From Leptolyngbya sp. Heron Island J (GTDB taxonomy: Bacteria > Cyanobacteriota > Cyanobacteriia > Phormidesmidales > Phormidesmidaceae), in NCBI RefSeq assembly GCF_000482245.1, contig NZ_AWNH01000070.1, positions 62,001 to 126,000 on the forward strand: a stretch of 64,000 nucleotides of DNA. Reading direction: 5' to 3'. Every line of letters starts with the position of its first letter. The first letter of the stretch is position 1. A program made the translations under genes and the position numbers. The notes beneath the pieces were generated by a model that saw only the letters and a list, made by a program, of their open reading frames with translations, made no database searches and was not told the DNA's origin. Positions 27,752-33,371 of this stretch are shown one piece after another.

Positions 27752-29563
27752 TTATACGCCTGCAACGGCCTCATCGACCCATTGCTTCACGGTGCTTACC
27801 ACCTCATCCAGGGGCAATTCAACCGATTCGCCATCGGCACGTTTGACCGCTTCTACCTTACCCTCTTTCAATGAGCGGCCCGTCACCACCCGGAAAGGAA
27901 TGCCAATTAGTTCGGAATCTTTGAATTTCACCCCAGCTCGTTCTTTACGGTCGTCGAGCAGGGTTTCCACACCGGCAGCATTCAGATCGGTATACAGCTT
28001 TTCTGCAGCCGCCATCTGGTCAGCGTCGTTGATGTTGGGGACGACAACAACGGCGTGGTAGGGTGCGATCGCAACTGGCCAAATAATCCCATTTTTGTCG
28101 TAGGACTGTTCCACAGCTGCCTGGGCCAGACGGGATACGCCAATGCCGTAGCAGCCCATTACTAGTGGTTGAGGCTTACCGCCTTCATCGGTAAAGGTGG
28201 CTCCCAGGGCAGTAGAATACTTGGTGCCCAGCTGGAAAATATGGCCGATCTCGATGCCCCGTGCAGTTTGAATGGTTTGGCTAGAGTCGTGAACGGCGCG
28301 ATCGCCGGCTATGGCTTTGCGAACATCGACAACCTTTTTCGGCAAAGTGAACTGGTCACCCCAGTTGGCACCGACCACGTGATAGCCCTTTTCATTTGCG
28401 CCTGTGGCAAAGTTCTTGAGATCCACAGCGGTCTCGTCGATGAGGCGGAGGAAGTGGGGAACTATGTTGTCCTGTTTTTGAATGTAGTCGTTCGAAATAT
28501 CAGGGGCAATGTAGCCCAGGGGTAAAGGCTGAGCCGCCCATTTAGCTTGGGCCTCAGCATCAGGAACCTCTAACGACAACAGGGTGGATGCGCCATAATC
28601 ATCGGCTAGATTGGTCAGGGCGTTTTGCAATTTAGTATCGTTAACGTCCTGGTCACCACGGATATTGATCAAGACCAGTACGGTTTGACCATTGTCATAA
28701 ACCGCCTGGTAGAGAACGTTTTTGACAATTTGAGTCGGCGAGCAATCTAGAAACTTAGCCATCGTCTCAATGGTGGAAGTGTTAGGAGTTTCTAGTTTTT
28801 TATATTCATTAAACTCTGAGGGAATGGCATCCGCAGGCAGCGATACCGCCTTTTCCACATTGGCGGCGTACTTGCCATCCTCGGTGAACAGCACCTCATC
28901 TTCCCCCGCATCGGCCAGGACCATAAATTCGTGGGAGCCAGACCCGCCAATGGCTCCAGAGTCTGCTTCCACTGCCCGAAACTTGAGACCACAGCGAGCC
29001 AAAATATTGCTGTAGGCCTGGTACATCTCGTCATAGGTGGCTTTGAGACTATCAATGTCCCCATGGAACGAATAGCCATCTTTCATAATGAATTCCCGAC
29101 CCCGCATCAGACCAAATCGGGGGCGAATCTCATCGCGAAACTTAGTTTGAATCTGATACAGATGGGTGGGCAGCTGCCGATAGGAGCGCACCATGTCGCG
29201 GGCTACAGCCGTAATCACCTCTTCATGGGTGGGGCCCAGGGCCACTTCCTGCTGACGCCGGTCGGTCAGGGCAAACATGATTCCTTCTGCCTTGGTGTAG
29301 GTGTCCCACCGGCCCGACTCCTGCCATAGTTCAGCAGGCTGCAGCTGGGGGAGCAAACATTCCTGGGCTCCCGTCGCGTTCATTTCTTCACGGACGATGG
29401 CTGATACCTTATTGAGCACTCGCCACATCAGTGGCAAATAGGCAAATACCCCGCTGGCAACTCGCCGGATATAGCCCGCCCTGATTAGGAGCTTGTGACT
29501 GGGAATCTCCGCCTCAGCCGGATCTTCACGCAGCGTGACAAACAGCATCTGGGACAGGCGCAT
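27752..29563 (-). CDS. proS: Prolyl-tRNA synthetase, bacterial type
   Basis: A 603-residue class II synthetase starting at ATG 29563. Motif 1 region: [16 protein letters not shown]. Motif 2: [23 protein letters not shown]. Motif 3: [14 protein letters not shown]. Between motifs 2 and 3 lies the insertion (editing) domain typical of bacterial ProRS, of about 180 residues, with the YbaK-like fold. The C-terminal anticodon domain is about 480-603 ([14 protein letters not shown]-type). It charges tRNA-Pro and hydrolyses mischarged Ala-tRNA-Pro. A free-standing YbaK homologue is encoded at 32904, covering Cys-tRNA-Pro. No operon partner is evident. Confidence 0.98.
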
Positions 29564-29759: not shown

Positions 29760-31058
29760 CTACTTGGGCAGCTTCACTGTAAATGTGGTTTTTTGCCTTG
29801 TGCTTTTTAATTCAATGGTGCCGCCTAAATTGATAACCAGCTGCTTTGTCAGAGCCAGACCCAGTCCGCTACCGCCATACTGTTGTTTGTCTATCTCAGG
29901 GACGCGATAAAACTTTTCAAAGATGTAGGGTTGGTGGCTGGGTGGAATTTGCACACCGGTATTGGCGATGGCGATTTCTACTGCAGTATCGATAGCTTTG
30001 ACGGTGATTTTGACTGTCTTTTTAGCTGGCGTGTATTTGATGGCATTGTTGATCAGCTCTGTGATCACTCGCTCGAGCTGGGTGACGTCGCACTCAAATA
30101 ACAATGGCTCTTGGGGAATAGTGATGCTGAGCTTTAAAGACTCTTGCTCCAACCTGGTGGTAAATGTGCGTAGCAATGAGGGCAACCACTCGCTCAGGTT
30201 CATTAATACCGGTTCTGATGCTTTTTGGTGTTCGGGAAACATCAGGGTAATGAGATTGTCGACAAACTGTTTCTGTCGCCGACATTCTTGGCTGAGGAGG
30301 CTCAACACTTTGAGTACAGTGCTACGCTGAGGTACCTTGCGCCATGAGGCGTCTTTAAAGATTCTCTCCAGGGTTTGGGCGGATAGCTGAATACTCCCCA
30401 GCGGAATAAATAATTCGTGGGAGATGAGCTGTAGAAATTCGTCTTTGGCGTTACGCAATTGGCGAATTTGGGTCTGTTGCTGGTCTATGGTTTGTTCTAG
30501 ATGGGTTTGATGAAGTGCGATCGCAACATAATTTGCCAGTCGACATAGCTGCTTTGACTCCGTCCCATCAAAAGCGCGTTGACCTGAACGCAGCACCCAC
30601 ATATTCCCTAACGAGGTGGTTCGCATCATGATTGGACAGCCCAGCCATGTCAAAGAAGCATCCGATGGTTTTTTAGTCCCTAGACACTGGGAGCTAAACT
30701 GCAGCGATGTTCCTTGAGTTAGGGGCTTATAGAGGTCCCATAGCTGAGTAATGGGCCGGGACTGGTTAGCTGGTCCCAGCCAGCCATCACCAACGCCACC
30801 CACTAATTTGGCTTGCTGCTGTTGGTTTTCATATAGCTCTATCTGACAGCCACGCAGATCAAACTGTTTGGCCACAGTCATCGGCAACCAACTAACTAAT
30901 TTTTGAAAAGAGTCTCCTCGCTGTATGAGCCCTAAAATTTGCTCTGTTAGTTGAAAACTTATGCCATGGTTAGAGGCTTCTGAAGCGGACAACATAGACG
31001 GGTCTGCATCAATCATTTCAGACTGAACTAAATTAAATTCAAACCCGTTATTGCTCAA
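29760..31058 (-). CDS. Sensor histidine kinase with GAF-like domain
   Basis: 432 residues from TTG 31058. AGGAGG lies 11 nt upstream of this TTG, so I prefer it over ATG 31016. Residues ~35-185 resemble a GAF-type sensor (WLPMTVAKQFDLRGCQIELY, then LGNMWVLRSGQRAF). A linking helix leads to HisKA with phospho-accepting His214 in LISHELFIPLGSI. The HATPase has N-box ELINNAIKYT, IANTGVQIP and G-box GGSGLGLALTK. It has no membrane helix, so it is cytoplasmic. It is divergent, across 1.1 kb of structured DNA, from an OmpR-type regulator that is the plausible but unproven partner. Confidence 0.93.
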   Translation of the reverse strand: MSNNGFEFNLVQSEMIDADPSMLSASEASNHGISFQLTEQILGLIQRGDSFQKLVSWLPMTVAKQFDLRGCQIELYENQQQQAKLVGGVGDGWLGPANQSRPITQLWDLYKPLTQGTSLQFSSQCLGTKKPSDASLTWLGCPIMMRTTSLGNMWVLRSGQRAFDGTESKQLCRLANYVAIALHQTHLEQTIDQQQTQIRQLRNAKDEFLQLISHELFIPLGSIQLSAQTLERIFKDASWRKVPQRSTVLKVLSLLSQECRRQKQFVDNLITLMFPEHQKASEPVLMNLSEWLPSLLRTFTTRLEQESLKLSITIPQEPLLFECDVTQLERVITELINNAIKYTPAKKTVKITVKAIDTAVEIAIANTGVQIPPSHQPYIFEKFYRVPEIDKQQYGGSGLGLALTKQLVINLGGTIELKSTRQKTTFTVKLPK

Positions 31059-31844
31059 GACTTGCCTGGCCTCCTACGTCATCACCATACAGTGAGAAAG
31101 GTGCATGGGGACAGTTGACTTGATGCTATTAAATCACAAGAAAACTACCAATATCTATAGTTCACCAATGAATTAACTAGTCCAAGTCGTGCAAGTGAAA
31201 CGGTTAACAGGTTGGTTAACAGCTATAAAAGTATTTTGCTAATTTAGCCTTCAATAAAAATAAAGGACGGGAGAAACTTTATGTGGATAAAACCAAGATA
31301 CATATCTAATTTAGTATCTAAAAAATAAAAATTTAAAATCCCATAAAAATTTTATGGAGTATAAAACGTTTGCTCAAAGACTTACATCAACATTTTCAAT
31401 CTGAGCAAAATCAAGGAGATAACCAACGGGCTTTTAAATAATTTAAGGCATCGAAAAACTAACAACCAGCAGCCCTTTAAGTAAACAAGTGTCTTAAAGT
31501 CTTTATTCCAAGCTACCTGTTCTTAGGATAAGAACAGAGTTTGACTTAGTAATAGGCTACCAACCAAACTCTTAATTCTTTTCCAAAAGACCACGTAGCA
31601 ATCAAGTAACCGACTTACTAACCTCACATGAACTCGTAATAAAGCATTAGACTGCAGTCAATCATCAAACACGGATTACTGACACATTTGTTTAAATGTG
31701 TATCGAATTGTTAAGGTGCTCTACCTCTAACTAGATCAGGGTCTGAATCCGACCTTTCAAATGTTACAGTGTCAAACGAGTTAGACTTCATCAACATAGA
31801 TTACAATCTGCAAAATTGAGGAGATTTTAATTCAACAAACAGTA

Positions 31845-31927
31845 ATTACGTCACGTAATATTTCCCAAAAGAGGAAATATTTTATTAAGTGATATGGCCG
31901 TAAGGGCACTCATGGTATGTGCCCTTA
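31845..31927. repeat. Chain of three perfect hairpins
   Basis: ATTACG-TCA-CGTAAT (31845-31859), AATATTTCC / GGAAATATT (31857-31881, 7-nt loop) and TAAGGGCAC / GTGCCCTTA (31901-31927, 9-nt loop) follow one another closely. This is suggestive of a structured RNA or an operator array. Confidence 0.6.
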
Positions 31928-31955
31928 TCAGTTGTTTACTTGGCTAATAGTAATC

Positions 31956-32050
31956 CGGCGTTGCTGCTCCTCAGTGTGATTTCATCTGTCAAGTTTGGGC
32001 TAATTGCACTGCTTAGCAGATTGATTCATCCTCTAAAGCAGCAACGGCAT
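31956..32050 (+). repeat. Dispersed repeat family B, copy 3
   Basis: The ends pair: GGCGTTGCTGCT (31957-31968) with AGCAGCAACGGC (32037-32048), one mismatch. The 3' half, ATTGATTCATCCTCTAAAGC, resembles the copy at 52433-52529. Confidence 0.55.
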
Positions 32051-32125
32051 TAATTCTTTGATTTAGCTACAGGCTAAGGCCTAAGTCACTTTTGCCGATT
32101 TTTCCTCCACAGTGCTCTGATTGAG

Positions 32126-32156
32126 CAAAATAAATGCCCAATGGGCGTTTATTTTG
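32126..32156. promoter_or_regulatory. Hairpin over an upstream ATG of the response regulator
   Basis: CAAAATAAATGCCCA (32126-32140) and TGGGCGTTTATTTTG (32142-32156) pair at 14 of 15 positions around one base. The centre is the A of an in-frame ATG at 32141. It may be a terminator, operator or translational switch. It argues for a start further downstream. Confidence 0.55.
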
Positions 32157-32176
32157 CAGAGCTGTGCATTGAGGTT

Positions 32177-32896
32177 ATGTCAGTGGTTAACGGTAAAGCT
32201 GTCATCCTGATTGCTGAGGATGAGGTTCATATTCGTAACGCTTTGCAGCGTAATTTAACTCAGGCTGGCTATGAAGTAGTTTTGGCCGTGGATGGGGCAG
32301 ATGCCATAGCTCAGTTTAGAGCTTATGCGATTGACCTCGTTGTGTTGGATATCCTGATGCCGAAGTTGGATGGTTTGCAAGTATGTCGGCTGATTCGCCA
32401 GAAATCAGATGTGCCAATTATTATGGCAACTGTGTTGGGTAGTCCCTCTGATCGGGTAGTGGGTTTAGATTTGGGGGCAAATGACTATATTGTTAAGCCC
32501 TTTTCCAGTCGAGAGCTCATTGCTCGAATTCGTTCAATATTGAGACGTTTGTCTCCAGCAGGAAGAGAACGCTCCACTAGCCAAGTCAATCATTTGCCAG
32601 TGGTCTCTGTGAGCAATCTCATTCTCTATCCCCAGACCCGTAAGGTGTATGACTCAAATACCTCTATTCGCCTTACTGAGATTGAGTTTCACATTTTGTA
32701 TCTGTTGGCTCAGTCCCCAGGACAAATTTTTACGCGAGAGAATATTTTTCAACGGGTGTGGGGATACACCCATGATGCTGATTTAGAGACAAAGGCCCTG
32801 GATGTGCATATTTCACGTCTCAGAACCAAGCTCGATACCAGTACGGTGCAGATTATGACGATTCAGGGACGGGGTTATATGTTGCTAGCCCGATAA
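32177..32896 (+). CDS. OmpR/PhoB-family response regulator, RpaB-like
   Basis: 239 residues from ATG 32177; ATG 32141 and GTG 32183 are in frame. The receiver domain has AEDE acidic residues, phospho-acceptor Asp58 in VVLDILMPKLDG, the conserved Thr in IIMATVLG and Lys in DYIVKPFS. The C-terminal winged helix (about 145-239) includes RLTEIEFHILYLLAQSPG, then DVHISRLRTKLD and IQGRGYML. The receiver is close to the cyanobacterial RpaB/Ycf27 pattern (SDVPIIM...GDxxDRxxGLxLGAxDY), but the rest diverges, so it is a paralogue rather than RpaB itself. It probably pairs with the divergent kinase. Confidence 0.92.
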   Translation: MSVVNGKAVILIAEDEVHIRNALQRNLTQAGYEVVLAVDGADAIAQFRAYAIDLVVLDILMPKLDGLQVCRLIRQKSDVPIIMATVLGSPSDRVVGLDLGANDYIVKPFSSRELIARIRSILRRLSPAGRERSTSQVNHLPVVSVSNLILYPQTRKVYDSNTSIRLTEIEFHILYLLAQSPGQIFTRENIFQRVWGYTHDADLETKALDVHISRLRTKLDTSTVQIMTIQGRGYMLLAR

Positions 32897-32903
32897 ACTG
32901 CCT

Positions 32904-33371
32904 CTACAAGATGATAGAACCCACAACTGCCTGGGTGGCTTTAATGTAATCCTGTGGGCTCAGCCAAAGCATAGCTCCACGCATGCCAGCTGAGACGGCA
33001 ATTTTGTCGTGGGCCTCAATCCATTCATCGACGTAGGTCGGATAGTTCTTTTTGCCAGCGAGGGCGGTGACACCACCGCGGATATAGCCAGTCAGGGGCT
33101 GTACTTCTTTGAGGGCGACAGGTAACAGTTTTCGGTCCTTGGTCAGCTTAGCCAGAGCCTTGAGGTTGAGCTGCGCGTTGGCCGCTAACACAGCCAGGCA
33201 AATTCCGTTGCGATCGCCCCGAATTACCAGTGTCTTAAAAACTTGATCGTGGGCTAGCCCCAGTTTGTCAGCGGTAGCGCTAGCCACCAAGTTATCTGGG
33301 TCTACCGTATAGGTCAGAATCTGATAGTCAATAGCCAGGGTGTCAAGCAGACGGGCGGCGTTAGTTTTCAT
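32904..33371 (-). CDS. ybaK: Cys-tRNA(Pro) deacylase YbaK
   Basis: A 155-residue protein of the YbaK/EbsC fold. It begins KTNAARLLDTLAIDYQ and has the GLAHDQVFKTLVIRGD strand with the conserved Lys of the active site. It also has TGYIRGGVTALAGKKNYP, which carries the Gly-rich loop that recognises Cys, and ends SPQDYIKATQAVVGSI. It hydrolyses Cys wrongly attached to tRNA-Pro by ProS, which is encoded ~3 kb away. It is convergent with the response regulator, with only 7 bp between stops. Confidence 0.94.
   Translation of the reverse strand: MKTNAARLLDTLAIDYQILTYTVDPDNLVASATADKLGLAHDQVFKTLVIRGDRNGICLAVLAANAQLNLKALAKLTKDRKLLPVALKEVQPLTGYIRGGVTALAGKKNYPTYVDEWIEAHDKIAVSAGMRGAMLWLSPQDYIKATQAVVGSIIL

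Follow-up and report, generated by a model that had tools for sequence, protein, structure and literature searches.

A conserved gap between divergent two-component genes, probably an RNA-based control region of a cyanobacterial group

Introduction

In Leptolyngbya sp. Heron Island J, a histidine kinase (HK) gene on the minus strand and an OmpR-type response regulator gene on the plus strand diverge from a non-coding gap of about 1.12 kb (31059-32182). What is the function of this gap, and is it exerted by DNA or by RNA? Positions are those of the window, i.e. the whole stretch of 64,000 nucleotides that was analysed, which belongs to an 8.06-Mb genome. The initial annotation had remarked on the unusual length and A/T-richness of the gap. 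Both were borne out, the G+C content being 36.7% over 31059-32194 compared with about 45-59% for the neighbouring genes in windows of 300 bases. It further described a hairpin-dense block that might host small RNAs, a long structured leader, or an operator array. We found no paper on this locus in the literature, one query being drowned in unrelated papers. Here, we compare the gap with its counterparts in related genomes, and conclude that it probably serves this cyanobacterial group as an RNA-based control region.

Results

The locus and its conservation

The HK gene starts at TTG 31058, with AGGAGG just upstream. The best model for the regulator is NCBIfam RpaB (NF045944), but its 251.7 bits remain below the cut-off of 330, and the protein is RpaB-like rather than RpaB proper. 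The gene order proS-HK-gap-regulator-ybaK-GGDEF is common to the congeners as far as their contigs extend (that of G002 terminates inside the gap, that of G007 in ybaK). An HK ortholog occupies the same place in five of the six congeners, the G002 contig stopping before that position. In the eight genomes searched outside the genus, the best HK matches are only 30-34% identical. The HK was seen at this locus only in this genus; in G031, G035 and G085, proS and the regulator adjoin without it, and the G009 and G026 contigs start inside the gap. Genes for a Cys-tRNA(Pro) deacylase (YbaK/EbsC, 32904-33371) and prolyl-tRNA synthetase (27752-29563) border the two-component pair in the genus, and in G031 and G035 they border the regulator; two functionally paired genes are thereby separated by regulators. 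In G007 the regulator gene (L051 202-935) consists of two overlapping frames, due to a frameshift or an assembly error.

Conservation in relatives, which the initial annotation had made part of its own test, was checked and found. A DNA search of 59 related genomes recovered the gap from the genome of origin and from six of its seven congeners (7/8). The eighth, G001 (70% complete), as well as G023 and G029 outside the genus, matched only a dispersed repeat. The six congeneric copies (G002-G007, from the Leptothoe/Adonisia/Leptolyngbya PCC 7375 clade) come from Adonisia turfae, Leptothoe kymatousa, Leptolyngbya sp. PCC 7375, Leptolyngbya cf. ectocarpi and two metagenome assemblies. The sample is thus one of seven related genomes, two of which (G004 and G005) are 96.1% identical here; identity was scored on six of the aligned gaps, leaving out G005 as the near-duplicate.

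Mean pairwise identity changes sharply along the gap. On the HK side (31140-31340) a single column is invariant. Identity is 63% over 31376-31510, 33% over 31511-31590, a variable middle part mostly missing in G004/G005, 68% over 31591-31850 and 53% over 31851-31932. It falls to 36% in the linker (31933-32085) and rises to 80% over 32086-32182. This profile therefore resolves the gap into two conserved units, separated and flanked by unconserved DNA (Table 1).

Table 1. Features of the gap and its flanking genes, in window coordinates
Feature	Position	Strand	Remarks
Histidine kinase gene (HK)	29760..31058	-	HATPase_c; HisKA below its cut-off
Unconserved flank, HK side to core	31140..31340		25% mean pairwise identity
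Conserved non-coding core	about 31366..31890	+	Candidate non-coding transcription unit; 63-68% pairwise identity
Module R1	31376..31425	+	5' copy of a ~45-nt direct repeat, AGACTTnCATCAACA ... GCAAAATnAAGGrG
Short helix	31428..31475	+	GGGC (31428-31431) / GCCC (31472-31475); one both-sided change, in G006
H element	31680..31719	+	Probable operator; near-palindrome / 10-bp-spaced units GTTTAAATGT GTATCGAATT GTTAAGGTGC
Proposed promoter P2	31762..31770	+	Extended -10-like TGnTAmAGT just before R2; predicted
Module R2	31781..31831	+	3' copy of the direct repeat
T1	31858..31886	+	Terminator-like hairpin (31858-31880), then T-rich run; end of core
T2	31901..31927	+	9-bp hairpin, kept in 6/7 species with different sequence; absent in G006
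Dispersed repeat, ~93 bp	31955..32050		Ends GGCGTTGCTGAT/ATCAGCAACGGC; occupies this site in the window's genome only
Structured leader of regulator mRNA	32097..32181	+	Last 85 bases before the regulator; contains T3 (32125-32157)
Response regulator gene, OmpR/PhoB type, RpaB-like	32183..32896	+	Probable start GTG 32183

A candidate non-coding transcription unit

We propose that the gap holds a plus-strand non-coding transcription unit, with H as an operator inside it, and a separate regulator mRNA whose leader would lock its own Shine-Dalgarno sequence. Judged from sequence comparison, this reading has about even chances of being right. We infer transcription and its direction, the promoters, the factor that would bind H and any target in trans from the features described below. 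The plus-strand unit is favoured because of the terminator-like end of the core, the duplicated module and the sharp borders.

T1, a hairpin followed by a T-rich run, lies at the end of the core in the orientation for plus-strand termination. On its own, the hairpin folds in 6/7 species, G002 being the exception; when T2 is included in the fold, 4/7 retain it (the window, G004, G006 and G007). The T-rich stretch follows in all seven species, interrupted by an A in the window and in G007. T1 plus T2 in the window folds lower than 199/200 dinucleotide shuffles (z -3.6). For T1 alone, 2/200 shuffles were as low in the window, and 39 to 121 of 200 in the other six species. Significance in the window only, and retention in only 4/7 species beside T2, count against our explanation. 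T2 is a hairpin conserved in structure rather than in sequence: its arms differ among six species (those of G004 and G005 being nearly alike), and its stem length was reached by 1 to 49 of 1000 shuffles in each of them. Just before T1 lies a short inverted repeat, T0 (31843-31857); at its site, some relatives (e.g. G005) permit an alternative A/T stem that possibly competes with T1.

The core contains the same module twice. The alignment score of R1 against R2 exceeds that of at least 499/500 shuffles in each of the seven species. The word AGACTTn(0-1)CATCAAyA occurs 14 times in the eight genus genomes, 11 times at this locus and three times elsewhere; the reversed control word occurs three times. 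Changes shared by both copies are suggestive only of joint evolution: CAAC was replaced by CAAT in R1 and R2 of G004/G005, which counts as one event, and both copies read CAACAC in G007, but G002 has CAACAC in R1 and CAACAT in R2. Candidate -10 elements precede both copies, namely TATAAA (31360-31365, loosely kept) and TACAGT (31765-31770) with TG ahead of it. By eye, both end 12 bases before the AGAC of their copy in the window, and ATG.TA.AGT (31761-31770) is invariant in 7/7 species. A convincing -35 element was not found by eye, and the two -10 candidates are unlike each other.

The proposed RNA would end at the T1 hairpin near 31886. A 5' end before R1 (about 31372) would give an RNA of ~515 nt, and one before R2 (about 31777) an RNA of ~110 nt. 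If both were used, the products would be two sibling RNAs opening with an identical 45-nt module. Pairing of R1 and R2 with the regulator leader was considered and is not convincing, as 24 and 164 of 300 shuffles were as good (G005 left out).

The regulator leader

The second unit would be the regulator mRNA, with the Shine-Dalgarno paired in the last 85 leader bases, so that translation would need the fold to be opened. The consensus fold is one long hairpin, in which CCTC (32104-32107) pairs with the Shine-Dalgarno GAGG (32171-32174). Across its 28 pairs, 95.8% of 168 cells are paired in the six distinct sequences (the identical G004 and G005 rows counted once), versus 35-45% when the partner was slid, a control that favours this fold because the alignment tested is the one from which the structure came. 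Four of the 28 pairs changed on both sides, which 2/500 shuffles reached. The consensus energy is similar on both strands (-22.2 on the plus strand, -21.0 on the minus strand).

In single-sequence folds, the CCTC-GAGG pairing appears in five of the seven species; in G002, and partly in G007, the Shine-Dalgarno has another partner. Apart from these two single folds, the Shine-Dalgarno is paired in a conserved structure with covariation. Its unpaired probability averages 0.115 over six species (G005 left out), versus 0.318 with the upstream part shuffled, and none of 200 shuffles was as low. Taken singly, the effect is strong only in G006 (1/200 shuffles as low) and G007 is contrary (133), with 15 in the window, 24 in G003, 46 in G002 and 40 in G004. 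The stretch 32100-32200 folds lower in the window than 200/200 dinucleotide shuffles (z -3.1). In the six relatives, where it was differently trimmed, the signal is weaker (z -0.3 to -2.1; 4 to 69 of 200 shuffles as low).

The initial annotation had centred T3 on an in-frame ATG of the regulator. ATG 32141 is indeed in frame, but it is probably not the start codon. Most relatives carry an in-frame start triplet at this site (ATG in G002 and G006, GTG in G004/G005, TTG in G007), which favours the initial annotation; the ATG of G003 is closed by a stop ahead of the regulator. Against this start, inspection by eye revealed no Shine-Dalgarno before it, a +1/-1 frame change between the window and the others, and a predominance of non-synonymous differences. 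GAGG, by comparison, stands 8 bases before GTG 32183 in the window, 9 bases before GTG in five of the six relatives, and 12 before ATG in G006.

Should the two units rather be read as one? A single long regulator leader could start at P2 (or P1), with T1 as a conditional terminator and read-through via T2 and T3. T1, T2 and T3 all lie on the plus strand upstream of the regulator, and H is found far upstream (about 320-600 bases before the regulator) even where the HK was not found, as if the regulator promoter were there. However, the linker that such a leader would have to cross is unconserved and holds a dispersed repeat in the window, which is also the basis for keeping the units apart. Moreover, the consensus folds, made with no dedicated anti-terminator search, contain no anti-terminator pairing. 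We therefore regard attenuation in one long leader as rather unlikely.

The H element

H is among the most conserved stretches of the core, and reaches beyond the genus. Among eleven gaps, the core profile matched that of G009, Vasconcelosia minhoensis (E 5e-4), and weakly that of G035 (E 0.04). A 59-column H profile, run against 375 kb of loci, many overlapping, gave G009 at E 9e-4, with G035 (E 0.57) and G085 (E 1.1) as next best; the latter are two genomes of another genus. In G009, G035 and G085 the matches are on the strand of the orthologous regulator and lie upstream of it, at distances of about 320, 594 and 601 bases. Between G085 and G035, H falls inside a 49-base identical stretch, the surrounding region being 76% identical. 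The profile did not find H in G031 and G026. A degenerate 27-base pattern matched seven contigs of the genome collection, six congeneric ones and Vasconcelosia, and nothing else; the pattern had been widened to admit the known G009 form, and the Vasconcelosia match is therefore no independent discovery.

Most likely, this 35-nt element is an operator of an OmpR-type regulator, plausibly the adjacent one, which would then regulate itself. It may serve the promoter next to R2. The spacing signal is modest. Repeats within H are spaced by 11 bp in G009 (0/400 shuffles) and by 10 and 12 bp in the genus group (0/400 each, the species not being independent and G005 left out), with nothing at lags 10-11 in G035/G085. 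According to PMC9241938, RpaB, the nearest named regulator family, binds HLR1, two direct 8-bp repeats of (G/T)TTACA(T/A)(T/A) separated by 2 bp. Similarly, an 8+2 bp direct-repeat spacing can be read in H, and its neighbour is RpaB-like. By eye, however, the H units (GTTTAAAT, GTATCGAA) differ from HLR1 as defined there and match its consensus poorly, and the regulator stays below the RpaB cut-off (251.7 bits versus 330). On this consensus, H was rejected as an RpaB site.

No RNA need be invoked to explain H. One could extend this to the whole gap, as a set of sites for the regulator and other factors together with the HK and regulator promoters, and no separate RNA. The spacing within H, the direct repeats bound by RpaB and the weak plus-strand RNA structure of the core agree with such a reading, but 500 conserved bp are long for binding sites. 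A plus-strand terminator at the end of the core would have no role unless a transcript arises inside the core, and the conserved core stops short of the HK side. Control by DNA only is thus unlikely, somewhat more so than the attenuated leader.

Nature of the core

The two-unit reading also asks what kind of sequence the core is. Its RNAalifold consensus energy is -10.9 kcal/mol, with a covariation term of 0. Against column-shuffled alignments, plus-strand windows from 31142 to 31880 reach only z -2.2 to +1.4, none being lower, and "hairpin-dense" does not hold for the whole block. The plus-strand window 31115-31206 does beat the shuffles (z -4.2). Several minus-strand windows between 31091 and 31340 do so too (z -3.0 to -6.1), although the consensus energy of some is close to zero; the alignments excluded rows of at most 40 letters (six rows at the HK side). 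Within the core, only minus-strand windows are significant, 31416-31531 (z -3.0) and 31649-31766 (z -3.2). The structure signal of the core leaves the strand unsettled, and both its weakness and the minus-strand windows count against our explanation. What is conserved in the core is thus chiefly its sequence; neither the consensus energy nor the alignment z-scores support a strongly structured large RNA.

No Rfam family matched the window at gathering score (4227 covariance models), and nothing appeared up to E 5 in 30900-32400. A sequence-only profile of the 3' part of the core (299 positions) matched 7/63 genomes of the family, all of one genus, once each and at this locus. A class-wide search (388 genomes) returned the same seven and three weak partial matches in 1.6-1.7-Mb genomes (E 9e-5 to 5e-4), which we consider background; no relative outside the genus is convincing. 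Misplaced housekeeping RNAs were rejected as well. RNase P RNA (RF00010) lies elsewhere in 8/8 genus genomes, over the cut-off in seven. For tmRNA, neither ARAGORN nor Rfam gave a match; a search with cyano_tmRNA did not discriminate, finding 1/8 in the genus and 3/14 in the controls, none over the cut-off in either. A tRNA-like string (31722-31760) is not kept in the relatives by eye and was taken as chance.

Could the core instead encode small conserved proteins? Shine-Dalgarno-like AAGGrG strings do occur in R1 and R2, but no conserved start after them was found by eye. The longest stop-free stretch is at most 53 codons, each frame has 8 to 24 stops, indels break the reading frames, and invariant sites are spread flatly over the three codon positions (59/54/51). 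Stops, indels and profile speak against a protein-coding core, and we reject this explanation as very improbable.

Inverted repeats and a probable mobile element

According to the initial annotation, the gap ended in a run of five inverted repeats. T0, T1 and T2 (31845-31927) and T3 (32125-32157) are present in the sequence, but the remaining one, at 31955-32050, is a dispersed repeat. With ~93 bp, this repeat gave 24 matches in 20 regions of five genomes, regions chosen because they had matched in the DNA search; two of the matches are one L097 place on both strands. None of the six relatives has it at this position in the alignment. Many copies exist in several genus genomes (L079-L098), two or three of them close together in L080 and L083, and some copies show by eye 8-9 base flanking similarities, possibly target duplications. 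The repeat is probably a small non-autonomous mobile element outside the conserved system. That all hairpins arose by chance in relaxed spacer DNA would agree with this insertion and with a simple terminator scan that was near expectation (2 found, 1.0 expected, sd 1.2), but conservation and compensatory changes already contradict it for the core, T2 and the leader, making it hardly tenable.

Discussion

Each of the three functions first suggested for the gap finds some support, in different parts of it; no single unit combines them. Small RNAs would fit the core, which is conserved, non-coding and closed by a terminator-like hairpin. The structured leader is confined to the last 85 bases before the regulator, where the conserved fold lies. 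Of an operator array, one 35-bp element stands, shared with orthologous regulator loci in other genera, which may be a direct-repeat operator.

The first unit recalls known tandem sibling sRNAs. OmrA and OmrB are controlled by OmpR, and an OmpR-type regulator gene adjoins the R1/R2 locus. As described in PMC4211561, PrrF1/PrrF2/PrrH in Pseudomonas and OmrA/OmrB in E. coli are tandem siblings; as with PrrF1/PrrF2 and OmrA/OmrB, a nearly identical 5' segment stands twice in tandem here, and a longer RNA covering both modules, like PrrH, would be possible. Unlike in tandem sibling sRNAs, the terminator-like hairpin follows R2 only, and none was found after R1. Two near-identical segments in one genome, the mark of sibling sRNAs, are present at the DNA level only, and comparison with Rfam gave no match.

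RNA thermometers and rpoS-type leaders control translation by sequestering the Shine-Dalgarno within the leader. The regulator leader resembles them in its conserved long hairpin, predicted to pair CCTC with GAGG, but differs from the known ones in having no Rfam match.

More tentatively, the two units could form a circuit of their own. The regulator would bind H and drive two sibling RNAs sharing a co-evolving 45-nt module, and its leader-locked ribosome site would be opened by such an RNA or by another signal; the HK would have joined within the genus, the operator and regulator being older. As a whole, this extension is unlikely to hold in every part, hardly more probable than control by DNA only.

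If transcribed, the core would represent a non-coding RNA family missing from Rfam 15, detected here in a single genus and tied to one two-component system. The leader provides a testable example of response-regulator translation that would be locked by a conserved leader, and H one of a probable operator retained where the neighbouring kinase differs.
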